From an uncultured Veillonellaceae bacterium (GTDB lineage Bacteria; Bacillota; Negativicutes; Veillonellales; Negativicoccaceae), in NCBI GenBank assembly GCA_945876385.1, contig CAMCNU010000001.1:186001-250000 (forward strand): DNA of 64,000 bases, given 5' to 3'. Positions 1 to 64,000 of this stretch are shown one piece after another; position 1 is the stretch's first letter; every line of letters starts with the position of its first letter. The notes under the pieces are model-generated. The model ran no database searches and was not told where the DNA came from. It saw only the letters and a program-made list of their open reading frames with translations. A program made the translations under genes and the position numbers.

Positions 1-1
1 T

Positions 2-2308
2 TTGTTGATTCCGGGATATTTTAACGGTAATGTATTTATTACTGTCCAACCGCCGCGAGGATTCGGCGAAGACCCCGGGAAGTTGTATCACTCACCGGAT
101 GTTTCGCCGACGCACCAGTATGAAGCGGTATACTATTGGATTCGGGAAGTGTTTCAAGCGGATGCAATTTTTCACATCGGTACTCACGGGACACTGGAGT
201 GGCTGCCCGGGAAAGGCACCGGCTTGTCGGCGGATTGCTATCCGGAGATGGCAATTGACGATTTGCCGAATATTTATCCGTACTGGACGACAATCGTCGG
301 CGAAGGGATTCAAGCCAAGCGTCGCAGTGCCGCTTGCTTAATCGGTCATTTGACGCCGCCCCAAGATCGAAGCGGTTTGTACGAGGGCATGGAAGAAATG
401 GAAAATTTGCTGGATGAGTATTTCCATTTCAAATCCGAAAAGCCTGAAATGTTGTCCACGCTGGAAGAGGAGATTGTCAAGCAAGCAAAGAAAATTCATT
501 TGTGGGAAGAAATACGCGGTGTAGAGGAAATGTCACTTGATGAGTTGGCAACGTCCTGTCATCGCTATCTGACCGATATCAAGCAAATGCAGATGCGTGT
601 CGCGTTACATGTCTTGGGACAAGCGCCCGAAGGCCGGCATAAGAGAAACTTTTTATTGGCATTATTGCGTGTTCGCAATAATCAGTATTCGCCGTTGCCG
701 GAAGCGGTATCGGCTTTGTATGATTGGGATTGGGACGAATTACAGGCGCATCCGGAGAAGATGTCTGCGGACGGTACCCTGCAGGCGCAACAAATCGACC
801 GTGTGTGGGAGATTTGTGAAATGCTGATTGAGCAAGTGGAAAACGGAGAATCGCCTCGGACGTTGGCGGAGCAACTTTGCCGGGAGGTGAAGAGCGTACG
901 CGAGGAAACCGTAGAAGAGCTGATCGGTGTACTGACCTGGATGAATGAGGTGTTGAGCCGTCGTTTGGACGACACGACACAGGAGATGCAAAATGCCTTG
1001 CGAGCATTGTGCGGGGAATATATCGAGCCGGGGCCGGGAGGCGCACCGACTTCCGGGCGGGCGGATATTTTGCCGACAGGAAGAAGTTTCTTCGGGATAG
1101 ATGCCAGACGACTGCCGACAAAAGCGGCATGGGCCATCGGGCAGCAGATGGCCGACGATGTGATTCGTCAATTTATCGAGGAACAAGGGCGGTATCCCGA
1201 GATGGTGGGGATTGTGCTTTGGGCGGGGGCGAATACACGCAGTCACGGGCAGTGTATTGCCCAATTCTTATCCTTAATCGGCGTGAGACCGGTATGGCAA
1301 GCGGGATCCGGGCGTGTTGTGGGGATTGAAGCCATTCCGATTGAGGAGCTGGGACGTCCGCGTATTGACGTTACGGGACGAATCAGCGGACTGTTTCGTG
1401 ATATGATGCCGACACCTTCACAGTGGTTGGATAAAGCGATGCGCTTGGTGGCGGAATTAGATGAACCGGAGGAGCAAAATTATATCCGCAAACATGTCGG
1501 CGACGATGTGGAATGGTTGATGCGGGAAGAAGGACTGTCGCATGAGGAGGCCTTTGAGCAGGCCCGTTGGCGTATTTTCGGCGATCCACCGGGCGCATAC
1601 GGTGCGGGAGTCAGTGATCTCTTGGAAGAAAAGAATTGGGAAACGATTGATGATATCGCCGAAGTATATGTACGCTGGGGCGGACATGCTTACAGCCGAA
1701 ACAGTAAGGGCGAATATTCGCCGACGCTGTTTCGACGCCGTTTGGAACAAATGGAAGTGACGATACAAAACCAAGATAACCGTGAAGTCAGCATGTTGTC
1801 ATCGGATGATTACAACGCATATCACGGCGGAATGATTGCGGCGGTGCGTAGCCACAGCGGTAAGATGCCGATGTCATACGCGGGAGATTCATCCGATCGC
1901 AGTCGTGTCAAGGTCAGAACGTTGCGGGAAGAGATGCATCGGATGTTTCGGGCGGAAGCGGCCAATCCCAAGTTTATATCGGGAATGAAAGAACACGGCT
2001 ACAAGGGCGCCGCCGATTTGGCTAAGTATGTGGCGCATGCGTATCAGTGGGATGCGACCAGTGCGGTGCTGGAGGACTGGATGTATGACGAATTTGCGGA
2101 TAAATATGCACTGGATGCGGCGATGCAAGAGTGGTTTCGCGAGGTAAATCCGTGGGCGTTACAACGGATTGCGGAAGTCTTGTTGGAGGCGGCGCGTCGC
2201 GGTTTGTGGGATGTAAACCGGGACCGCAAGGAGCAGTTGGAGGCCATATATCTGCAGATGGAAGGCGAACTGGAGGAAAAAGGAGAAAATATCTCTGCCC
2301 GACCATAA
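2..2308 (+). CDS. cobN: Cobaltochelatase large subunit CobN, C-terminal part (5' end outside window)
   Basis: The CobN/BchH family subunit binds the corrin ring for ATP-dependent cobalt insertion. The reading frame is open to the window edge and gives 768 residues; full CobN proteins are about 1,200-1,300, so roughly the first 450 are missing. The HIGTHGTLEWLPGKGTG motif near residue 58 and the PHSPDVSP-like segment just before it are typical of the family. No AAA+ partner subunits (CobS/CobT or ChlI/ChlD type chelatase) lie in the window, so they must be elsewhere if the enzyme works as known CobN complexes do. The gene is followed after 42 bases by a TIM-barrel gene and then a B12 riboswitch, which supports a role in cobalamin rather than chlorophyll metabolism. 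The ATG/TTG at the window edge should not be read as the true start. Confidence 0.93.
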   Translation: MLIPGYFNGNVFITVQPPRGFGEDPGKLYHSPDVSPTHQYEAVYYWIREVFQADAIFHIGTHGTLEWLPGKGTGLSADCYPEMAIDDLPNIYPYWTTIVGEGIQAKRRSAACLIGHLTPPQDRSGLYEGMEEMENLLDEYFHFKSEKPEMLSTLEEEIVKQAKKIHLWEEIRGVEEMSLDELATSCHRYLTDIKQMQMRVALHVLGQAPEGRHKRNFLLALLRVRNNQYSPLPEAVSALYDWDWDELQAHPEKMSADGTLQAQQIDRVWEICEMLIEQVENGESPRTLAEQLCREVKSVREETVEELIGVLTWMNEVLSRRLDDTTQEMQNALRALCGEYIEPGPGGAPTSGRADILPTGRSFFGIDARRLPTKAAWAIGQQMADDVIRQFIEEQGRYPEMVGIVLWAGANTRSHGQCIAQFLSLIGVRPVWQAGSGRVVGIEAIPIEELGRPRIDVTGRISGLFRDMMPTPSQWLDKAMRLVAELDEPEEQNYIRKHVGDDVEWLMREEGLSHEEAFEQARWRIFGDPPGAYGAGVSDLLEEKNWETIDDIAEVYVRWGGHAYSRNSKGEYSPTLFRRRLEQMEVTIQNQDNREVSMLSSDDYNAYHGGMIAAVRSHSGKMPMSYAGDSSDRSRVKVRTLREEMHRMFRAEAANPKFISGMKEHGYKGAADLAKYVAHAYQWDATSAVLEDWMYDEFADKYALDAAMQEWFREVNPWALQRIAEVLLEAARRGLWDVNRDRKEQLEAIYLQMEGELEEKGENISARP

Positions 2309-2350: not shown

Positions 2351-3319
2351 ATGAAAGAAACAGCAAATCTCACTAATTTTCAATCGGATGTGGATATGAT
2401 TTCCGCGGATGCAGAAGTCTTGCGTGCGTTTTTACGCAAGCACCGCTTGGACGGGATTGAGATGATGCTCTGTGCACCGTGGGATCGAAAAATGTTTCCT
2501 GAAGATCTGATTATCGGTAATCATTTGCCGTTTTATCCGAATTGGATGGATTTTTGGCGGGAGAAAACGGAGGTGGTGCGGGAAGAATTCGGTACGGACG
2601 AACAAATTACTGCGCAATTCGGGGGGCTGACCAGAGAGCGATGGCTGGAGAAATATCGCCGGCAAATTGAAGATGCGGCGGAGACCAATCCCGAATACAT
2701 GGTGTTTCACGTAGGTAATGTCCGTTACCGAGAAACTTTTTCGTGGCAGTTTTATTACGATGACGAGGAGGTGATTGATGCAACAATTGAAGTATTGAAA
2801 GAGTTGACCGATTGCATTCCGAGTGATACGTGGCTTTTGCTGGAGAACTTATGGTGGCCCGGCCTGCGTCTGACAAATCGTCGCTTAACGGATAAGATTT
2901 TGTCCCGTAGCCCGCACCCAAAAACGGGGATTATGCTGGATACGGGGCACTTGCTTGCGACTAATGCCGCATTGCGCACACAGGAAGAAGCCGCGCAGTA
3001 TATTCACCGTGTGCTGACCGATTTGGGTGATGCGAAAGAAATGGTGAAGGGGGTGCATCTGCATCAATCACTGGCCGGAGAATACTTGCGTCGGCATACG
3101 GGGAAAATCCCCGCAACATTGACGATGACGGATATTGCCCATCACATTCATCACATCGATTATCATGCGCCGTGGTCTTCTCCGGCGGTACATACCGCAT
3201 TACAGCCAATTGCGCCGGAGTGGATTACCCATGAGTTTTTGCAACGGAGTTTGGCGCATTGGGATGCGCAGTTGCAAGTTCAAACCGATGCCTTGCGAAA
3301 ACATGAGCGGAACGCATAG
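2351..3319 (+). CDS. AP-endonuclease-2-like TIM-barrel protein, candidate cobamide remodelling enzyme CbiR
   Basis: This 322-residue protein looks like a xylose isomerase-like/AP endonuclease 2 TIM barrel. Metal-ligand-type residues sit at the ends of predicted strands: Glu37 (DGIEMM), His120 (MVFHVGN), Glu165 (LLLENLWWPG), Asp197 and His200 (IMLDTGHLL), His236 and His238 (GVHLHQS). The ATG at 2351 is chosen because AAAGGTGGGG lies just upstream; an in-frame ATG at 2312 has no good ribosome binding site. CbiR, a member of this superfamily described in Akkermansia, cleaves the nucleotide loop of cobamides so that the lower base can be exchanged. Position between cobN and a B12 riboswitch makes that the leading idea. 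The function is inferred from fold and context only; another sugar-phosphate isomerase-like role remains possible. Confidence 0.6.
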   Translation: MKETANLTNFQSDVDMISADAEVLRAFLRKHRLDGIEMMLCAPWDRKMFPEDLIIGNHLPFYPNWMDFWREKTEVVREEFGTDEQITAQFGGLTRERWLEKYRRQIEDAAETNPEYMVFHVGNVRYRETFSWQFYYDDEEVIDATIEVLKELTDCIPSDTWLLLENLWWPGLRLTNRRLTDKILSRSPHPKTGIMLDTGHLLATNAALRTQEEAAQYIHRVLTDLGDAKEMVKGVHLHQSLAGEYLRRHTGKIPATLTMTDIAHHIHHIDYHAPWSSPAVHTALQPIAPEWITHEFLQRSLAHWDAQLQVQTDALRKHERNA

Positions 3320-3340: not shown

Positions 3341-3369
3341 TTGACAGGCACTTTGAACAGTGCTATTCT
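3341..3369 (+). promoter_or_regulatory. Promoter for the B12 riboswitch-exbB transcript
   Basis: TTGACA at 3341-3346, a 17-base spacer, and TATTCT at 3364-3369 preceded by TGC (an extended -10). It lies just after the TIM-barrel gene stop, so transcription of the riboswitch would begin near 3376. Confidence 0.75.
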
Positions 3370-3393
3370 AAACGTAATTGAAAACTCCAATCA

Positions 3394-3538
3394 GTAAGCA
3401 GGTGTTTTACTTAATAGAGAAATCGGTTGATGCCGATGCGCTCACGCCACCGTGAGAGGAGCCGGCTTGACGATGCCACTGCATAGTCGGGAAGGCGGAG
3501 CAGGTGGGGATTCCAAGCCGGGAGAGCTGCCTGTTTAT
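3394..3538 (+). promoter_or_regulatory. Cobalamin (B12) riboswitch upstream of exbB-exbD-tonB
   Basis: The conserved core is recognisable: GCCACTG at 3475-3481, the GGGAAGGCGGAGCAGG segment at 3489-3504, and a B12-box-like AAGCCGGGAGAGCTGCCTG at 3515-3533. GTAAGCAGG (3394-3402) pairs with CCTGTTTAT (3530-3538), counting G-U pairs, as the closing P1 helix. A local hairpin CTCACG...CGTGAG lies at 3441-3456. No clear intrinsic terminator follows before exbB, so control at the ribosome binding site is more likely, but the expression platform at 3539-3638 was not resolved. The riboswitch sits about 100 bases before exbB, implying repression of TonB energisation when B12 is plentiful. Confidence 0.85.
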
Positions 3539-3638
3539 GAAGAAACGTTTGCTTACGAGCGATGAGGAAGCGTACTCTTTTATTGCGCTGTCATCAATAA
3601 AGGAGTTTTATTTTTGAGGGAAAAGGAAGGTAGTTACT

Positions 3639-4268
3639 ATGAGCGAAGCGTTGCATCTGTTTGTTGCCGGCGGGCTGGTTATGTATCCGTTGGCATTTTG
3701 TTCGATTGTGGTGGTGGCCATTGCCATCGAACGGTTTATGTATTATCGCAAAGCGCAATCCGATATGGAGAAACTGATAGCGGAAATGCCGTTGTTGCTG
3801 GGGAAAAACGACATTGTCGGCTTGAAGGAGCTGTTGGAAGCGGATGCCGGATTTCCGGCGATGACGATTGACACGGCGGTCGACCATTTGGGCTCGAATG
3901 CGAACCAAACTGCGATTGTCGAAGGGGCGGCCAGCCACGGTGCCGCGCTTTTGAGAAACTACCTGAACTATTTGGATGTCATTGTCACGATGTCGCCTCT
4001 CCTCGGGTTGCTCGGTACGGTTACCGGGATGATTAGTTCGTTCAGCGTACTGTCCATTTCCGAAGGGCAACCGTTTGCGATTACCGCCGGTGTCGGGGAG
4101 GCCTTGATTGCGACGGCTACCGGTCTTTTGGTTGCGATTTTGGCATTGATTGTACATACCTATTTATCGCATCGCCTGGACGGATTGGTTTCGGATATGG
4201 AACGGATTTCGTCGGTATATTTGGCCCATGTCGATAATGTAAGAGCGGGTGTTTCTCATGAAGCTTAG
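3639..4268 (+). CDS. exbB: ExbB-like proton channel of the TonB energising complex
   Basis: This 209-residue MotA/TolQ/ExbB family inner-membrane protein would form, with ExbD, the proton-driven motor that powers TonB. Membrane segments are visible near residues 8-31 (GLVMYPLAFCSIVVVAIAIE), 115-135 (SPLLGLLGTVTGM) and 150-172 (EALIATATGLLVAILALIV), the usual three-helix plan. It is preceded by AAGGAAGGTAG and overlaps exbD by 11 bases. TolQ is an alternative, but the following genes are ExbD and TonB and there is no TolA/TolB. The B12 riboswitch just upstream suggests the complex serves corrinoid uptake across the outer membrane. Confidence 0.9.
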   Translation: MSEALHLFVAGGLVMYPLAFCSIVVVAIAIERFMYYRKAQSDMEKLIAEMPLLLGKNDIVGLKELLEADAGFPAMTIDTAVDHLGSNANQTAIVEGAASHGAALLRNYLNYLDVIVTMSPLLGLLGTVTGMISSFSVLSISEGQPFAITAGVGEALIATATGLLVAILALIVHTYLSHRLDGLVSDMERISSVYLAHVDNVRAGVSHEA

Positions 4269-4689
4269 ATCATTGCGGGTGGAAAAACAGCCGAAGTTGA
4301 TGATTATACCGATGATTGACATCATTTTCTTCCTGCTGGTTTTCTTTATGATGAGTATGTTGTCCATGGTCGTGCAAAAATCCATCGATTTGTCTTTGCC
4401 GCAAGCCACTGCGGCAAAAGTCAATATGGAAACAACCATCCCGATTAGTGTGACGCGGGACGGTGCGATTTTTGTCGAGCAGGAGCCGGTAGCGCCGGAA
4501 ACATTAATGCGTCGTTTGCAAATTGAAAAAGAACGTAATCCGAAACTCGCAGTTGTGTTGCGAGCGGATGCCGATTCACAACATAAATCGTTTGTTTTTG
4601 TCTTGGATCAATTGAAAAAAGTAGGTGTGGAACGTATCGCAATTGCGACAGACGGCAAGGCGGTTTCAGAACCTGCACAAACGAGGTGA
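4258..4689 (+). CDS. exbD: ExbD-like component of the TonB motor
   Basis: A 143-residue ExbD/TolR family protein with a short cytoplasmic N-terminus, one membrane helix (residues about 16-40) and a periplasmic domain. The essential helix aspartate of the family is present as Asp21 in IIPMIDIIFFLL. The ATG at 4258 lies inside the exbB 3' end (11-base overlap), suggesting translational coupling; an upstream in-frame GTG at 4249 is less likely. Together with ExbB and TonB it would convert proton flow into movement of TonB. Confidence 0.9.
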   Translation: MKLRSLRVEKQPKLMIIPMIDIIFFLLVFFMMSMLSMVVQKSIDLSLPQATAAKVNMETTIPISVTRDGAIFVEQEPVAPETLMRRLQIEKERNPKLAVVLRADADSQHKSFVFVLDQLKKVGVERIAIATDGKAVSEPAQTR

Positions 4690-4693
4690 TGGC

Positions 4694-5422
4694 ATGAATT
4701 TCGGTTACGACAGCGATAAAAATTGGGGAAAAGCCTTTGGCGGTTCGTTCGTGTTTCATGCTGTCGCGTTGCTTACCTTGGGCTTGGTGGTGCATTATAC
4801 ACCGCCGGCTGAACCTGCCGATCAGTCGCAGGTATTGGTGGAGTTGTATGAACCGGGCGGAGGCGGCGGTGAAACCGGTCCGGAAGAGTTTCCGGAAGAG
4901 GCGATGGAAGAGTTTGAAGATGTCTATGAAGAAGACTTCTATGAGCCGCAGGAACAGCCGGTATTTGACCCGACAGTACCGCCTGCACAAGTGGAAAAAC
5001 CCAAGCCCGTGAAACGGCCTAAAGCAGTACGTAAACGTGGTCGGGGAACCGGTCACGGTAGCGGACAAGGTAGCGGTACCGGCACCGGCCAGGGAACGGG
5101 TACCGGATCGGGCATCGGCTCAGGAACCGGCGCGGGACGCGGCGAATCTTCGAATCCCTCCGTCCTTTCCAGCGTGAAACCGCGGTATCCTTCCGGCGCA
5201 CGCAGTGAAAACCGAGAAGGTACGGTGGTCGTCGGTGTACGGGTGGGTACGGACGGTCGTCCGGCGAGTGTCTGGGTGGAATCCGGATCGGGTTATTCAG
5301 ACTTGGATGAGGCAGCGCTTAATGCGATTCGTAAATGGCGTTTTGTGCCCGGGAAAAGCAACGGTACACCGGTGGAAAAGAGCGTACAGATACCCATCCA
5401 ATTTAATTTGGTAGATGCATAA
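4694..5422 (+). CDS. tonB: TonB energy transducer with acidic and glycine-rich linker
   Basis: A 242-residue TonB protein. The order is a cytoplasmic tail, one membrane helix at residues about 16-36 (SFVFHAVALLTLGLVVHY), a very acidic stretch at about 60-90, a Lys/Pro/Arg stretch at about 100-117, a Gly-Ser-Thr repeat at about 118-152, and a C-terminal TonB domain from about 160 (VKPRYPSGARSENREGTVVV to IRKWRFVPG). The linker is glycine-rich where classical TonB is Pro-Lys/Glu-rich. The ATG at 4694 follows GAGGTGATG and starts 4 bases after exbD; a GTG at 4625 inside exbD is rejected. It would span the periplasm and engage TonB boxes of outer-membrane corrinoid receptors, none of which is in the window. 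Confidence 0.9.
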   Translation: MNFGYDSDKNWGKAFGGSFVFHAVALLTLGLVVHYTPPAEPADQSQVLVELYEPGGGGGETGPEEFPEEAMEEFEDVYEEDFYEPQEQPVFDPTVPPAQVEKPKPVKRPKAVRKRGRGTGHGSGQGSGTGTGQGTGTGSGIGSGTGAGRGESSNPSVLSSVKPRYPSGARSENREGTVVVGVRVGTDGRPASVWVESGSGYSDLDEAALNAIRKWRFVPGKSNGTPVEKSVQIPIQFNLVDA

Positions 5423-5463: not shown

Positions 5464-5877
5464 ATGAGTATGAAACGGTGGATTTTAGCGGTCATGGTTG
5501 CAGGAGTTGTCGGTAGCGGTAGCAGTGTATCGCAGGCGGCAGATGTATCGTGGTTGGATGAAATGCGTACCCCGCCGCAAGTCGTGAAGCATGTGATGCC
5601 GGTGTATCCGGAAGATGCGCGGGCGGAAGGTGTGGAGGGGCAGGTCGTAGTACGTGTTACGATTTCGAAAGAAGGCACTGCGATTCGCCCGCAAATTGTT
5701 GTGTCGTCGGGAGACCCGAGACTCGACCAGGCGGCGATTGACAGTGTACTTGCCTGGAAGTTCAAGCCGGCGACGTTGAACGGTATGAAAGAAGCGGCAG
5801 AAGTACAAATACCGTTGCAGTTCCGTTTGGTAGATCCGGAGCCGCCGGCGGAAGAGGCGACAACTGAAGCTCGTTGA
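5464..5877 (+). CDS. Secreted protein consisting mainly of a TonB C-terminal domain
   Basis: A 137-residue protein with a Sec signal peptide (Lys4/Arg5, hydrophobic stretch, probable cleavage after SVSQA near residue 25) followed almost at once by a TonB_C domain (MPVYPEDARAEGVEGQVVV, AIDSVLAWKFKPATLNG, IPLQFRLVD). It lacks the transmembrane anchor and linker of a full TonB, so it would be a free periplasmic domain. It lies 41 bases behind tonB with its own GGAGGAGTG site, very probably in the same transcript. Function is unknown; it could compete with TonB for receptor TonB boxes or help load them. Confidence 0.85.
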   Translation: MSMKRWILAVMVAGVVGSGSSVSQAADVSWLDEMRTPPQVVKHVMPVYPEDARAEGVEGQVVVRVTISKEGTAIRPQIVVSSGDPRLDQAAIDSVLAWKFKPATLNGMKEAAEVQIPLQFRLVDPEPPAEEATTEAR

Positions 5878-6097
5878 ATCGATTGAATCGGGATGCTTGC
5901 ATGGATATTGGCGATGTATGTTCGACATCGATTCGCATCGCTGATGGACGCAACGGATGCATATTGGTGAATACTCATGATAGAATGTAGGTGCATGGAT
6001 GGCATCCTTTTCCCTATCGGCGGGGATAGCACCAAGGTGCAGAAAAACCGATGCGGTCGGACATGAATGGGCGGTAAGAAAGGACGGAGAAGAGAGC
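5878..6097 (+). promoter_or_regulatory. 220-base leader region before cbiL with extended -10 promoter
   Basis: TGA-TAGAAT at 5978-5986 is an extended -10 candidate. The following 110-base leader contains short self-complementary pieces, CTATC...GATAG around 6014-6030 and GCACC...GGTGC around 6030-6041, but no cobalamin, TPP or other riboswitch core I recognise. An in-frame ATG at 5999 would add 33 residues to cbiL that do not look like the family. Confidence 0.4.
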
Positions 6098-6802
6098 ATG
6101 AGTCAAGGCGTATTATATGGAATCGGAGTCGGCCCGGGAGAATCCGGACTGATGACAGTGCGAGCGGTGGAAACACTCAAGACGGTCGACGTGATTATTG
6201 TGCCGCGAACGGAAAAGAAGCAAGAGTCGGTGGCATTTCATATTGCTAAGCCCTATATCCCGGAAGGGGTTACCATTATGCCGATTGTATTTCCGATGGT
6301 GCCGGATATGCGGATCCAAGAAGAAGCATGGAAAGAAAACCGAGAAGCAATCGGAGCCATTTTGAATCAAGGCAAGAATGTAGCATTTTTGACATTGGGC
6401 GATCCGATGTTTTACAGCACATATATGTATGTGTATCGGGCGTTGACACCGACCTATCAGGTAGAGACAATCCCCGGCATCCCGGCATTTTTAGCGCTGG
6501 CCTCGCAGTTGGGACGACCGGTAGCCGAGCAAGAAGACGTAGTTACGGTATTGCCGGCAACCGCCGATCCGGAAACGTTGGAAAAGGTCATTGCCGTCAG
6601 TGACAGCTTGGTGATTATGAAAGTCTATAAAAGTTGGCCGACAATTAAGAAGTTGTTGACACAATACGGGTTGATTGATTCGGCGGTGATGATTTCCCGA
6701 GCCGGCTTGCCGGATGAAGAACGGTTTACGGATTTGGCGGCGATTCCGGATGATGCTAAGTTGAATTACTTGTCGACGATTTTAGCAAAACGTAATCGAT
6801 AG
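6098..6802 (+). CDS. cbiL: Precorrin-2/cobalt-factor-II C20-methyltransferase
   Basis: A 234-residue SAM-dependent corrin methyltransferase that adds the C20 methyl group. The family N-terminal signature GIGVGPGESGLMTVRAVETL (residues about 7-26) and the SAM-site segments LTLGDPMFYSTYMYV and IPGIPAFLALASQLGRP are clear. Length matches CbiL/CobI. The ATG at 6098 has GGACGGAGAAGAG upstream. Whether its natural substrate carries cobalt (CbiL, anaerobic) or not (CobI, aerobic) cannot be read from sequence alone; the presumed anaerobic host favours CbiL, although the CobN chelatase is more typical of late insertion. It starts the cbiL-cbiA-cobO operon. Confidence 0.9.
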   Translation: MSQGVLYGIGVGPGESGLMTVRAVETLKTVDVIIVPRTEKKQESVAFHIAKPYIPEGVTIMPIVFPMVPDMRIQEEAWKENREAIGAILNQGKNVAFLTLGDPMFYSTYMYVYRALTPTYQVETIPGIPAFLALASQLGRPVAEQEDVVTVLPATADPETLEKVIAVSDSLVIMKVYKSWPTIKKLLTQYGLIDSAVMISRAGLPDEERFTDLAAIPDDAKLNYLSTILAKRNR

Positions 6803-6813
6803 GGAGGAGTATC

Positions 6814-8187
6814 ATGAAAGTAACGCTTCCGCGCATCGTGATTGCGGGAACGCACAGCGGCGTCGGTAAAACGACGATTGTAACCGGGATAGTGGCGGCT
6901 CTTGCGCGCAAGGGGTATGCCGTGCAACCCTTCAAAGTGGGACCGGATTATATTGATCCCGGTTTTCATTCATTGGCCGCGGGGCGCCCGTCGTACAATC
7001 TGGATACATGGTTGGTTCCGGAAGAAAAATTAGCGTATAACTTTTCTGTCTTGGCGGATACAGCTGATATTTCGGTGATTGAAGGTGTGATGGGGCTGTA
7101 TGACGGCGGCGCAGGAGGTGTCAGCAGCAGTGCGGATATTGCGCTACGGCTGGGGGCACCGGTAGTGCTTGTTGTGAATGCACAGTCAATGGGACAGAGC
7201 GCAGGTGCGGTGGCACTCGGATACAAGATGTTTAATCCGCAGGTTCATTTGGCCGGCGTTATTTTAAATCGTATCGGTTCCGATCGACATGCGGAAATGA
7301 CGCGGGAGGCTGTTGAGAGTGTGGGCATCCCTGTTTTGGGAATCATCCGTCGCAATGAGCAATTGCAGACGCCGGAGCGACATTTGGGCTTGACACCGGT
7401 GACGGAGCTGAGTCCGGAAGAAGTCATCGAGCAGATGCGAGCGGTCATGGAAGTGTCGATTGACTGGGATCAATTATTGCAAATTGCCCGAAGTGCACCG
7501 GATATTCAATCGGATTGGCGGCCGGACGTCGCTGCGCCGATGGATGTGCGCATCGGTGTGGCACAGGATGAAGCGTTTTCTTTTTATTATCCGACAAGTC
7601 TTTCGTACTTGCAGTCGCAGGGGGCGACATTGGTGTTGTTCAGTCCGCTGCGTGACCGGTCCATTCCGGAGAATGTAGACGGCCTTATTTTCGGAGGCGG
7701 GTTCCCCGAAATGTTTTTGGAAGCGTTGACAGATAATACCTGCATGATGGAGTCGATTCGCCAGGCGGCGGCCAAAGGGATGCCGTTGTATGCGGAATGC
7801 GGGGGACTGATGTATCTGTGTCGTGAGTTGCGCGGGTTTGACGGGCGAGTATATCCGATGGTCGGTGTCGTGCCGGCGGTGACGGAGATGCAACAACGTT
7901 TGCAGCGAGTCGGGTATGTCACGGCAACGGCACGCCGCGACAGTGTTATTGCCGCGGAGTCGATGCAATTGCGCGGACATGAATTCCATTTTTCCAAATT
8001 GGTGCCGGACGATGCGGACGCGTTTCCCTGGGCGTATGATTTACAAGGAACAAGGCAGCGGGAAAGCCATTTGGAAGGATATGCCGAGGGGAATATCTTG
8101 GCATCTTATCTGCACATTGCATGGGACGGTAACGAAGCGGCCGCACGGCATTGGTTGCAGAGTTGTGCGGCATATCGAATGAGGTGA
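6814..8187 (+). CDS. cbiA: Cobyrinic acid a,c-diamide synthase
   Basis: A 457-residue enzyme that amidates the a and c side chains of cobyrinic (or hydrogenobyrinic) acid using ATP and glutamine. The P-loop AGTHSGVGKTT lies at residues 10-20, the substrate-binding FKVGPDYIDPG follows near 43, and the class I glutamine amidotransferase domain carries FGGGFPEMF and YAECGGLMYL with the nucleophile cysteine near residue 329. Length is normal for CbiA/CobB. It starts 11 bases after cbiL with AGGGAGGAG and ends 4 bases before cobO, so the three form one operon. Confidence 0.95.
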   Translation: MKVTLPRIVIAGTHSGVGKTTIVTGIVAALARKGYAVQPFKVGPDYIDPGFHSLAAGRPSYNLDTWLVPEEKLAYNFSVLADTADISVIEGVMGLYDGGAGGVSSSADIALRLGAPVVLVVNAQSMGQSAGAVALGYKMFNPQVHLAGVILNRIGSDRHAEMTREAVESVGIPVLGIIRRNEQLQTPERHLGLTPVTELSPEEVIEQMRAVMEVSIDWDQLLQIARSAPDIQSDWRPDVAAPMDVRIGVAQDEAFSFYYPTSLSYLQSQGATLVLFSPLRDRSIPENVDGLIFGGGFPEMFLEALTDNTCMMESIRQAAAKGMPLYAECGGLMYLCRELRGFDGRVYPMVGVVPAVTEMQQRLQRVGYVTATARRDSVIAAESMQLRGHEFHFSKLVPDDADAFPWAYDLQGTRQRESHLEGYAEGNILASYLHIAWDGNEAAARHWLQSCAAYRMR

Positions 8188-8191
8188 GAGA

Positions 8192-8749
8192 GTGGAAACG
8201 AGAAGTTCACATGTACCGGACGGATTGGTTTTGGTGAATACGGGGGAAGGCAAAGGGAAAACGACAGCCGCGCTGGGGACAGCGCTCCGAGCCTTCGGGA
8301 ACGGCCAAAAAGTCCTGATTTTTCAATTTATCAAAGGGTCGTGGAAGTATGGCGAGCTGGAAGCCATTCGTCGTTTGGGCGAGGGGATAGAAATCCGTCA
8401 AATGGGTGACGGGTTTGTCAAACACAACCAAGACGCGACGGAAGAGACGATAGCGGCACATCGGCAAAAAGCGGAAGAAGCATGGCAGAAATTATGCGAA
8501 GAGGTGCAGTCGGATCGATGGGATTTGATTGTACTGGATGAGATTAATTACGCTGTCCATTTCGGCTTATTGTCGGTGGGGGCGGTGGTGGACTTGATTG
8601 TGCACCGACCGAAGCGTTTGAATTTGATTTTGACCGGACGCTATGCGGCGCAAGAGGTTATCGATCAGGCGGATACCGTGACGGAAATGACCTTGGTCAA
8701 GCATGCATTTCAAAAAGGAATTCGTGCACGACGCGGTATTGAATATTGA
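8192..8749 (+). CDS. cobO: Cob(I)alamin adenosyltransferase, CobO/BtuR type
   Basis: A 185-residue corrinoid adenosyltransferase that transfers the adenosyl group of ATP to Co(I). The P-loop TGEGKGKTTAALG near residues 17-29, VLIFQFIKG, and LIVLDEINYAVHFGLL are the standard motifs. The GTG start is preceded by GAGGTGAGAG that overlaps the end of cbiA. It is the last gene of the left cobalamin block and is followed by a strong terminator. A second, unrelated adenosyltransferase (PduO type) is at 59270-59770. Confidence 0.95.
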   Translation: METRSSHVPDGLVLVNTGEGKGKTTAALGTALRAFGNGQKVLIFQFIKGSWKYGELEAIRRLGEGIEIRQMGDGFVKHNQDATEETIAAHRQKAEEAWQKLCEEVQSDRWDLIVLDEINYAVHFGLLSVGAVVDLIVHRPKRLNLILTGRYAAQEVIDQADTVTEMTLVKHAFQKGIRARRGIEY

Positions 8750-60272: not shown

Positions 60273-60860
60273 ATGGGAAGCAGCAGATTGGTTATCGGTG
60301 GGGCACGGAGCGGTAAAAGTGAGTTTGCCGAGCAATTATTGGCGGAAGCGACCGGACGAAAAGGATATATCGCCACCTCACGGATCGGCGATCCGGAGAT
60401 GCGTGAGCGGGTGCGTACGCATCGTGCGCGGCGGCCGTCCGCGTGGACAACGTTTGAGTTGCCGACAAGCGATATGAAAGCGCTTGCAGATATCCTGCCG
60501 CAAGCGGATATATTCCTGTTTGATTGTGTTACAATGTATGTAAATAACTTGTTGCTGGACGAATTGGGCGATTTGGGGAGCGATGTTTCGGTGGTGTTTT
60601 CCGAGTCGGAAATCGAGCGGATTACTGAGCGGTTGCGAGGGGAAATGGCAACGCTGGAAACATTATTGAACGCTCACGATGCGCAAGTCATTTTTGTGAC
60701 GAATGAATTGGGGATGGGCATTGTTCCGAATAATGCGATGAGCCGACTGTATCGTGATTTGGTCGGCTTGGCAAATCAAGAGTTGGGCGCCATCTCGTCG
60801 CAAGTGGAGTTGGTCATGGCAGGCATTCCTGTCCGGTTGAAAAGAGGAGAAGGGCAATGA
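60273..60860 (+). CDS. cobU: Adenosylcobinamide kinase / adenosylcobinamide-phosphate guanylyltransferase
   Basis: A 195-residue bifunctional enzyme of nucleotide-loop assembly. P-loop VIGGARSGKSEFAE, GYIATSRIGDPEMRERV, HRARRPSAWTTFELP with the GMP-acceptor histidine, and FVTNELGMGIVPNNAMSR are typical. GGGAGGCG lies before the ATG. Overlaps cobQ by 4 bases. It could also use cobinamide phosphate released by a CbiR-type enzyme. Confidence 0.96.
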   Translation: MGSSRLVIGGARSGKSEFAEQLLAEATGRKGYIATSRIGDPEMRERVRTHRARRPSAWTTFELPTSDMKALADILPQADIFLFDCVTMYVNNLLLDELGDLGSDVSVVFSESEIERITERLRGEMATLETLLNAHDAQVIFVTNELGMGIVPNNAMSRLYRDLVGLANQELGAISSQVELVMAGIPVRLKRGEGQ

Positions 60861-62392
60861 CAAAAGCGATTATGTTTCAGGGAACCAGTTCACATGTAGG
60901 CAAAAGCATATTGACGACGGCACTGTGTCGGATTTTGAAACAGGACGGATATCGTCCGGTACCTTTCAAAGCGCAAAATATGGCGCTCAATTCCTATGTA
61001 ACGAAAGACGGCGACGAGATGGGCCGCGCGCAAGTCGCACAAGCGGAGGCGGCCGGCCTGGAGCCGATTGTACAGATGAATCCGGTGCTGCTCAAGCCGT
61101 CGGGCAATCAGACGTCACAAGTCGTGTTGATGGGGAAGCCGGTCGGCGTGTACAGCGCGCAGGAGTATCATACACACTACAGCCTGACCGCGTGGGACTC
61201 TGTCAAAAAAAGCATGGCCTATCTCGAAGAACACTTTGATGTGGTGGTGATTGAAGGTGCGGGGTCTCCGGCCGAAGTCAATCTGAAAGATACCGACATT
61301 GTAAATATGCGGGTGGCCAGAGAGTTTCAGGTACCGGTATTCCTGATTGCCGATATCGATCGCGGCGGAGCACTCGCCTCGATTGTCGGCACGCTGGAGC
61401 TGCTGGAGCCGGAAGAGCGTGACTTGGTCAAGGGCATCGTCATCAACAAATTCCGCGGCGATATCCGTTTGTTGGAGCCTGCATTGACCTTTTTGGAGGA
61501 AAAAACCGGCAAGCCGATTTTAGGAGTAGTTCCGTACTTGGACGATTTGGGAATTGAAAATGAAGACTCGGTCTCCTTGCAAGATAAAGCGGAGCATCTT
61601 GACCGCAGTTTACAAATCGCGGTATTGCAGACACCGAAAATTTCCAATTTCACGGATTTCGATGCACTTTCGCATGAACCGGATGTGGAAATCCGGTATA
61701 TTCGCCGCGGCGATTCGATCGGTCATCCCGACATGGTTATTTTGCCGGGCAGCAAGAACACGATTGAGGATTTATTGTACTTGCATCGTTGCGGCTATGT
61801 CGAAGAGCTTCGTCGTCTGGCCGAGGACGGTGTACCGGTGGCCGGAATTTGCGGCGGGTACCAAATGCTGGGGCAGGAAGTATTGGACCCTGGGCACGTT
61901 GAAAGCCACCACGACCGCGTCGAAGGCATCGGCTTATTGCCGACCCGTACCCACATGGAAGGGAAGAAGACGACACACCAAGTCACATTTTCCTGCCACG
62001 ATTTTGACTTTTTAGGGTTGGATGTATCTTTTGATCACTTGCACGGATATGAGATTCATATGGGGCAAACGGACTTTTTGGACACCGAGGGTGGCGCCTT
62101 TGCTTTGCGCACACGCAGTAGCCGGCCGGTCACCGCACAAGACGGCAAAGTGTCCGCGGATAAACAAGTATTCGGTACGTATATGCATGGCGTATTTGAT
62201 AATGATGAGCTGCGGCGCGCCGTGTTGAACGCATTGCGCCAACGGAAAAATCTGGAACCGTTACCGGTATCTTTCCGCTGGAATGAGTACAAAGACGCTG
62301 AATATAATCGGTTGGCCGATACAGTCAGAAAGGCACTGCGGATGGAGTTGATTTACGAATCGCTGCGTGAGGAGCCGAACGCGCATGTATGA
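60857..62392 (+). CDS. cobQ: Adenosylcobyric acid synthase (CobQ/CbiP)
   Basis: A 511-residue amidase for corrin side chains b, d, e and g. The N-terminal ATPase IMFQGTSSHVGKSILTTAL, FKAQNMALNSYVT and VVIEGAGSPAEVNL, and the glutaminase VAGICGGYQMLGQEV with its cysteine near residue 333 are intact. Overlaps cobU (4 bases) and cobD (8 bases). Confidence 0.97.
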   Translation: MTKAIMFQGTSSHVGKSILTTALCRILKQDGYRPVPFKAQNMALNSYVTKDGDEMGRAQVAQAEAAGLEPIVQMNPVLLKPSGNQTSQVVLMGKPVGVYSAQEYHTHYSLTAWDSVKKSMAYLEEHFDVVVIEGAGSPAEVNLKDTDIVNMRVAREFQVPVFLIADIDRGGALASIVGTLELLEPEERDLVKGIVINKFRGDIRLLEPALTFLEEKTGKPILGVVPYLDDLGIENEDSVSLQDKAEHLDRSLQIAVLQTPKISNFTDFDALSHEPDVEIRYIRRGDSIGHPDMVILPGSKNTIEDLLYLHRCGYVEELRRLAEDGVPVAGICGGYQMLGQEVLDPGHVESHHDRVEGIGLLPTRTHMEGKKTTHQVTFSCHDFDFLGLDVSFDHLHGYEIHMGQTDFLDTEGGAFALRTRSSRPVTAQDGKVSADKQVFGTYMHGVFDNDELRRAVLNALRQRKNLEPLPVSFRWNEYKDAEYNRLADTVRKALRMELIYESLREEPNAHV

Positions 62393-63341
62393 CCTCTATC
62401 CCTTGGTGCCGTGGTTGGCGATGGTCTTGGACATCGCCATCGGTGATCCGCGGAGCCGTTGGCACCCGGTGGTACTGATTGGCCGAGTGATTTCGTTTTG
62501 GGAAAAGCGTGTCTATCCGCAACGCAGCTCTCCCCGTCAAACGATTTTTGACGGGGCTTGTTGTGTCTTGCTGGTACTGCTGACCGTCGGCGCGGTCGGC
62601 GGGGTTATTATGTATCTGGCGGCGTGGGTGGGGTACCATGCGTACTTGCTGATGGCGGCAGTCGTACTCTACATTACCATTACGCCGGATTCGCTCGCGC
62701 GGGACGGTAAAGAAATCGCAGGCTTACTGATGCACGGCGATATAGCCGAAGCACGACACAAATTATCATGGATTGTGGGACGGGATACCGCCGGATTGGA
62801 TGAAGGCGAAATCTCGCGTGCCACGATTGAAACAGTTGCGGAAAATATTACGGACGGTATTTTGTCTCCGCTCTTTTACTTCGCGTTACTCGGACCGCTG
62901 GGGGCACTGTTGTATCGAGCCGCCAATACGATGGACTCCATGCTGGGATACAAAAACGAACGGTATTTGTATTTCGGTCGTGTCGCCGCACGTCTGGACG
63001 ATGTGCTCAACTATCTGCCGGCCCGAATTACCGCAGGGCTTCTTTTGGTGTCTGCTTGGGTCTTACGTTATAATGTGCATAATGCATGGCGCATCATGCG
63101 CCGTGACGCCGACAAACATCCCAGTCCGAACGGCGGGTATGCGGAAGCTACCGTCGCCGGCGCATTGGATATTCGTTTGGGTGGGTATAATTATTATGAC
63201 GGAGTGGCGGAATTTCGCGCCTACATGGGGAATGCCTCGCAGCCGATAACATGGCTGCATATATTATCGACAGTGCGGTTGATGTATGCGGCTACATGGT
63301 GGATGATCGGTATCGTCAGTTTGAGCATGCTGGTTAGGTGA
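62385..63341 (+). CDS. cobD: Adenosylcobinamide-phosphate synthase (CobD/CbiB)
   Basis: A 318-residue inner-membrane protein that attaches aminopropanol (or its phosphate) to adenosylcobyric acid. DIAIGDPRSRWHPVVLIGRV, VAENITDGILSPLFYFALL and SPNGGYAEATVAGALDIRLG are hallmarks. Four to five membrane helices. ATG 62385 lies within cobQ. Confidence 0.95.
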   Translation: MYDLYPLVPWLAMVLDIAIGDPRSRWHPVVLIGRVISFWEKRVYPQRSSPRQTIFDGACCVLLVLLTVGAVGGVIMYLAAWVGYHAYLLMAAVVLYITITPDSLARDGKEIAGLLMHGDIAEARHKLSWIVGRDTAGLDEGEISRATIETVAENITDGILSPLFYFALLGPLGALLYRAANTMDSMLGYKNERYLYFGRVAARLDDVLNYLPARITAGLLLVSAWVLRYNVHNAWRIMRRDADKHPSPNGGYAEATVAGALDIRLGGYNYYDGVAEFRAYMGNASQPITWLHILSTVRLMYAATWWMIGIVSLSMLVR

Positions 63342-63345
63342 TAGA

Positions 63346-64000
63346 ATGAATGCATTTTTGATTGCATTGCAATTTTTAACGAGAATCAAGTTGGTTCGCC
63401 AAACCGTTTGGACGGAAAAAGATTTCGGTGCATCCGTGACTTGGTTTCCTGCGGTGGGGGCGATCATCGGCCTGCTGTTATGCGGGATTTATTGGTTGCT
63501 GCATGATGTCGTTCCCGCCTTTGCGGTCGCAGTGATATTGGTCATTGCAGAATTTTTGATTACCGGCGGATTACATGCGGACGGTCTGATGGATACGTGC
63601 GACGGCTATTTTTCCGGGCGCTCGCGCGAGCGGATGTTGGAGATTATGAAGGACAGCCGAGTCGGTGCAAACGGCGTGCAGGCATTTGTCTTTTTTGTCC
63701 TGCTGAAAATCGCATTACTGCTCTCGTTATCCGTGGAGCCGTATGTTGTACTGGGAACCATGCCGCTTTTGGGGCGTTGGCTGATGTCCTGGAGTGTGAC
63801 CGGATTTCCCTATGCACGTCCGCAGGGCATCGGTAAAGCGTTTGCGGAATATGCGCCGTCATACGCACTGAAAGTGGCCACATTAATAACGCTTCTCCCT
63901 GTACTGTGGGTGCCGATTCCTCTGTACCTGACGATGGCGGGGACTGCCGCACTCTGGGGATGGTGGGCAAACTCCCGCTTAGTCCGCAAATTGGGAGGCG
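63346..64000 (+). CDS. cobS: Adenosylcobinamide-GDP ribazoletransferase CobS, 3' end outside window
   Basis: An inner-membrane enzyme that joins the lower-base riboside to adenosylcobinamide-GDP. The frame starts MNAFLIALQFLTRI and is open to the window end (218 codons seen; full CobS is about 250). The motif HADGLMDTCDGYFSG with metal-binding aspartates and EIMKDSRVGANG are diagnostic. It starts 4 bases after cobD. Confidence 0.94.
   Translation, partial: MNAFLIALQFLTRIKLVRQTVWTEKDFGASVTWFPAVGAIIGLLLCGIYWLLHDVVPAFAVAVILVIAEFLITGGLHADGLMDTCDGYFSGRSRERMLEIMKDSRVGANGVQAFVFFVLLKIALLLSLSVEPYVVLGTMPLLGRWLMSWSVTGFPYARPQGIGKAFAEYAPSYALKVATLITLLPVLWVPIPLYLTMAGTAALWGWWANSRLVRKLGG

Follow-up and report, generated by a model that had tools for sequence, protein, structure and literature searches.

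A gene near the start of the 64,000-nucleotide stretch of DNA analysed here (the window) encodes the founding example of a distinct AP_endonuc_2 family, whose bacterial members very probably act in cobamide metabolism. We consider it slightly better than an even bet that the encoded protein is a cytoplasmic multi-metal TIM-barrel phosphodiesterase, non-orthologous to CbiR, which cleaves imported cobamides at the nucleotide loop and so yields (adenosyl)cobinamide phosphate and alpha-ribazole; the substrate, the bond cut, the metals and the targeting of imported cobamides are the parts of this reading that we infer. That bacterial members in general cut the cobamide nucleotide loop at the phosphodiester is an evenly balanced proposition. 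CbiR is the known cobamide remodelling phosphodiesterase (NF041277), represented by Amuc_1679 of Akkermansia (PMC7733943).

Target gene and its neighbourhood

The open reading frame of the target gene, checked in the window, was intact and encodes 322 amino acids, with a possible alternative in-frame ATG upstream at 2312. Superfamily membership was established with Pfam AP_endonuc_2 (PF01261), whose gathering score of 31.1 the protein exceeded with 45 bits, and the AlphaFold model was a TIM barrel with a mean pLDDT of 97, both in agreement with the AP-endonuclease-2-type barrel of the original prediction. A fold search with the model gave Z scores of 17–18 to xylose isomerase and epimerases, and endonuclease IV matched as well, the branches scoring alike; a PDB sequence search found no close solved relative of the target protein or of a CbiR.

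The predicted position of the gene in a corrinoid locus, between cobN and a TonB cluster led by a B12 riboswitch and with CobU and CobS in the same window, was confirmed by annotation (Table 1), and cobamide context recurs across the bacterial loci of the family. The downstream riboswitch begins 64 nt after the target gene, is preceded by a promoter-like TTGACA-17-TATTCT at 3341–3369, and heads ExbB, ExbD, TonB, the second TonB_C protein and then CbiL, CobB/CbiA and CobA/BtuR. Upstream of the window (L132, G000:C1:166001-186000), another cobalamin riboswitch at 3093–3256 leads a same-strand series of genes that overlap or almost abut, encoding a NifH-like protein, two nitrogenase-like (D/K-like) subunits, CobN, FecCD, an ABC ATPase, a radical SAM protein, ChlI, ChlD, two binding proteins and a second CobN. 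The target gene closes this tight riboswitch-led operon and, since no further gene precedes the downstream promoter-like site, it is probably controlled by the upstream riboswitch. The gene set of L132 3093–20000 and window 1–2308 resembles (bacterio)chlorophyll enzymes within a B12-regulated transport operon, and L149 of the related genome carries CbiK as well.

Table 1. Annotated features of the window, with positions counted from its first nucleotide
Feature	Positions	Strand	Remarks
CobN-type chelatase, second CobN of the operon	1–2308	+	3' part, stopping 43 nt short of the target gene
Target gene, founding example of a distinct AP_endonuc_2 family	2351–3319	+	Predicted cobamide nucleotide-loop phosphodiesterase; ORF, Pfam, tree, conserved residues, model
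Cobalamin riboswitch (RF00174)	3383–3548	+	64.8 bits; heads the operon that follows
ExbB-type (MotA_ExbB) energiser	3639–4268	+	
ExbD	4264–4689	+	
TonB	4697–5422	+	
Second protein with a TonB C-terminal domain (TonB_C)	5464–5877	+	
CbiL/CobI C20-methyltransferase	6095–6802	+	
CobB/CbiA a,c-diamide synthase	6814–8187	+	
CobA/BtuR corrinoid adenosyltransferase	8192–8749	+	
CobU	60273–60860	+	Proposed to turn cobinamide phosphate into cobinamide-GDP
CobQ cobyric acid synthase	60857–62392	+	
CbiB	62367–63341	+	
CobS	63346–63999	+	Partial, cut off by the end of the window; proposed to add the new lower ligand

Elsewhere in the same genome, two CbiZ genes (G000:C14:30830-31435 and C3:71097-71702) and a tandem PF02277 (CobT-like) pair (G000:C2:109821-111841) were found; such a tandem pair is the signature used to predict phenolyl-cobamide makers (PMC6461909), and also ArsAB. 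Together these genes make the stripping of foreign lower ligands plausible in the host of the window. A further AP_endonuc_2-like protein of this genome (L013 1432–2253, minus strand, G000:C3) adjoins an ABC ATPase; its CbiR-model score of 39 bits falls short of the cut-off.

Extent of the family

One scan recovered 70 loci of the window family, many of them from metagenome-assembled genomes (MAGs), with taxon labels used as deposited. The labels cover seven bacterial phyla (Bacillota, Fusobacteria, Chloroflexi, Armatimonadota, Acidobacteria, Deltaproteobacteria and Bacteroidota) and archaea of the Methanomassiliicoccales type. Within the order of the window's host, a full copy was present in 9 of 61 genomes and a degraded or fragmentary one in two more. 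The degraded copies, with in-frame stops and split frames, lie in the relatives L010, L012 (G013) and L011 (G032); those of G013 and G032 are recent losses of the gene. Profile and sequence searches found no NCBIfam or PDB entry naming the family, and a literature search, which did not reach the supplementary regulon tables of PMC3766115, found no paper describing it; it is a separate and widespread family that apparently has not been described before.

The archaeal members form a clade with intact active-site residues, lying in a conserved block beside MetK-like (labelled by sequence inspection), DUF4443 and UbiA genes (L068, L071, L073, L080 and others), and a cobamide marker was found in none of the 16 archaeal loci. 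Their role may be the same as that of the bacterial members or a different one.

Gene context of the bacterial members

At least one scored cobamide marker was present in 35 of the 55 bacterial loci and none in about 20, where BtuC/FecCD and binding proteins, which are not B12-specific alone, counted as markers. The best model for the receptor of L018 is the B12 receptor and for the permease of L036 it is BtuC, with every score short of its equivalog cut-off. A cobalamin riboswitch lay 71–144 nt upstream of the family gene in 7 of the 53 bacterial loci having upstream sequence. For the other ORFs of these loci the figure was 17 of 526 (Fisher p=0.004), a conservative comparison because the control ORFs include B12 genes, although the seven loci, which belong to two lineages (L025 and L033 in Bacillota; L056, L059, L060, L061 and L081 in Chloroflexi), are not phylogenetically independent. 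For scale, a published survey counted 535 cobalamin riboswitches in 197 genomes (PMC3766115).

Uptake genes recur around the family gene, which repeatedly comes last in BtuFCD/BtuB operons; it stands in riboswitch-led or BtuF/C/D-BtuB-TonB operons in L016, L036 and L040 and closes an eight-gene run in L146 (PBP-ABC-FecCD-ExbB-ExbD-TonB-receptor-family gene). The gene for the adenosylcobinamide amidohydrolase CbiZ, also a cobamide remodelling enzyme, adjoins it in L015, L018, L054 and L065 and overlaps it in L148 and L149; CbiZ is unrelated in sequence and cuts an amide bond, not a phosphodiester. Most family-positive genomes of the order carry CbiZ, yet so do 38 of the 61 overall, and co-occurrence alone is uninformative. 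The alpha-ribazole kinase gene cblS adjoins the family gene in L043 and L054, and in L025 and L033 the family gene is divergent from cblT-cblS with a cobalamin riboswitch on both arms. These AIRS-like neighbours have no NCBIfam name and were assigned through the published CblT-CblS-CobS-CobC operon (pMF1298-5), to whose gene cblS showed 37% identity. A divergent cobT-cobU-cobS lies beside the family gene in L046, L048 and L069.

Several other neighbours were recorded. In two Bacillota MAGs, the gene immediately preceding the family gene encodes an ARMT1-like damage-control phosphatase (L022:6724-7599 and L031:6967-7839). In Chloroflexi, a DUF7676 gene, possibly a B12-linked DUF, is found near it (L057:499-1077, L058:62-682 and L062:4169-4747), the L062 copy between a cobalamin riboswitch and the family gene, and in a Chloroflexales MAG a MerB-like alkylmercury lyase gene (L061:6875-7543) lies upstream of the riboswitch and the family gene.

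The CblS and CobTUS neighbours, together with the invariant residues, could also serve a phosphatase or phosphodiesterase acting not on the loop of a finished cobamide but on another molecule of the pathway, for example alpha-ribazole-5'-phosphate, cobamide-5'-phosphate, cobinamide-GDP or a free remodelling nucleotide. We consider this unlikely: a CobC candidate of histidine-phosphatase size, assigned by position and size only, still stands beside CobS in L069 and L050, so that no replacement phosphatase is needed there, and the coupling to uptake operons and CbiZ better fits an incoming whole cobamide. A shade less likely again is some other step of corrinoid or tetrapyrrole acquisition tied to the CobN/ChlI/ChlD/nitrogenase-like operon, such as dechelation or hydrolysis of the ring or a side chain, with the riboswitch merely as regulator. 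Such a step would account for the cobN that immediately precedes the family gene in the window, L015/L149 and L021 and for the one close by in L054, but many members lack CobN and yet accompany BtuFCD, CbiZ or CblS. Cleavage of the nucleotide loop is the reading we prefer; the points that count against it are the roughly 20 bacterial and 16 archaeal loci with no scored marker, the match of the fold to xylose isomerases and epimerases as well as to endonuclease IV, the spacing of the D270-x-H272 pair, and CbiZ of the same genome, which could already do the remodelling.

Active site and relation to endonuclease IV and sugar isomerases

When 55 members were aligned, H58, H120, E165, D197, H200, H236, D270, H272 and E295 were invariant and E37 was conserved in 54, with one gap. 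Six of the metal ligands proposed from the single sequence (E37, H120, E165, D197, H200 and H236) are thereby upheld; the seventh, H238, is variable (31 His and 17 Asn among the 55), and the invariant H58, D270, H272 and E295 were missing from that set. The nine invariant residues run H,H,E,D..H,H,D.H,E and thereby match, in type and in succession, the metal ligands of endonuclease IV, where H69, H109, E145, D179, H182, H216, D229, H231 and E261 bind three zinc ions. Profile alignment to E. coli Nfo paired H120 with H109, E165 with E145, D197 with D179, H200 with H182 and H236 with H216. H58 was matched to Nfo by order and to CbiR H74 by alignment, D270-x-H272 was matched to Nfo D229/H231 by type and order only, lying about 34 residues past H236 versus 13 in Nfo, and E295, just past the last barrel strand, was paired by MAFFT with a conserved CbiR Glu. 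Such an endonuclease-IV-like set of residues points to hydrolysis of a phosphodiester more than to isomerisation of a sugar. W168-W169-P170-G171 is invariant and an aromatic-rich stretch follows H58 (W65 in 52 and W69 in 45 of the 55), features that would fit a ligand that is large and flat.

The protein might instead be an endonuclease IV paralogue, or an isomerase or epimerase of sugar phosphates, whose gene stands in a B12 locus by chance. The shared fold and Pfam family are consistent with this, as is a structural Z of about 17.5 to epimerases and xylose isomerase, but we judge it improbable given that cobamide context recurs in several phyla. The xylose isomerase/tagatose 3-epimerase group has four metal-ligand positions in common with the window family, which stands without sugar context. 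Sugar epimerases need only these four, and to our knowledge the group lacks the additional His and Asp residues that are invariant here. When the 55 members were searched singly against NCBIfam at E<=1e-5, 8 of them matched CbiR and up to 4 matched deoxyribonuclease IV models; no other model was hit, those for sugar isomerases included. From Nfo the family differs by an identity of only about 13–15%, by the absence of DNA-repair context and by a score of the target protein of 17.5 bits on the endonuclease IV model TIGR00587, whose cut-off is 129.65; a grouping with Nfo was nevertheless compatible with the tree (p-AU 0.36), and the two may belong together as clades.

Separation from CbiR

The original prediction had named the protein a candidate CbiR, and this identity was rejected by four lines of evidence: the curated cut-off, reciprocal profile models, the tree and the AU test. 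On the curated model NF041277 the target protein scored 19.6 bits (17.9 in the genome search), where the equivalog cut-off is 105. A CbiR model of our own was built from CbiR-model matches in Bacteroidota, Chloroflexota and one Armatimonadota genome, and a model of the window family was built alongside it. With the CbiR model, CbiRs scored 244–420 bits and window-family members no more than 29; with the window-family model, its full-length members scored 291–434 and CbiRs no more than 12.5. In the superfamily tree CbiR and the window family were separate single starred clades (99 and 98), and forcing the target protein into the CbiR clade cost 68 log-likelihood units (p-AU 1.3e-11). The profile search and tree thus gave no clustering with CbiR, and they did not place the protein with sugar isomerases or Nfo either, but in a clade of its own. 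A profile search of the window's own genome found no CbiR above cut-off.

Both families share the AP_endonuc_2 barrel, a cobamide gene context and a similar conserved His/Glu/Asp set, and a like reaction is predicted for the window family. The conserved CbiR residues are E39, H74, H114, E159, D182, H185, H208, D217, H218 and E250, with which E37, H58, H120, E165, D197, H200, H236 and E295 align, the D/H pair differing in position: CbiR has an adjacent D-H, whereas the window family has an invariant D-x-H as well as an invariant LENLWWPG. The window-family protein is also longer, and its gene, unlike that of CbiR, accompanies BtuFCD, CbiZ and CblS. The two may be sister clades (support 84), but true orthology, for which this placement and the similar residues would speak, is hardly credible in view of the scores, the tree test and a genome that encodes both (L054 of the window family and L085, a CbiR of 218 bits). 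Of the original prediction, the nucleotide-loop cleavage tied to uptake is backed by gene context and active-site residues, and the CbiR name was wrong.

Proposed reaction and implications

In the proposed mechanism, a metal-activated water would attack the nucleotide-loop phosphodiester of an imported cobamide. The neighbouring CblS suggests that the leaving part would be alpha-ribazole, not alpha-ribazole phosphate, and hence that the bond would be the one CbiR cuts; because a CbiR-type cut would call for an alpha-ribazole kinase, the adjacency of CblS counts for loop cleavage. Cobinamide phosphate would pass to CobU and CobS would add a new base, so that the two enzymes, with CblS where present, would rebuild a cobamide carrying the cell's preferred lower ligand.

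Current databases label the family only as a generic TIM barrel, and the function predicted here is concrete and easily assayed. Our broader proposal, which we hold tentatively and at a little under even chances, is that the family is a second, CbiR-independent cobamide nucleotide-loop phosphodiesterase family across seven labelled bacterial phyla and methanogenic archaea, coupling B12 import to cleavage and, with CblS, recycling the released alpha-ribazole. Cobamide remodelling determines which bacteria use which forms of B12, and if the proposal is true, remodelling either arose more than once in this superfamily or is far older and wider than thought.
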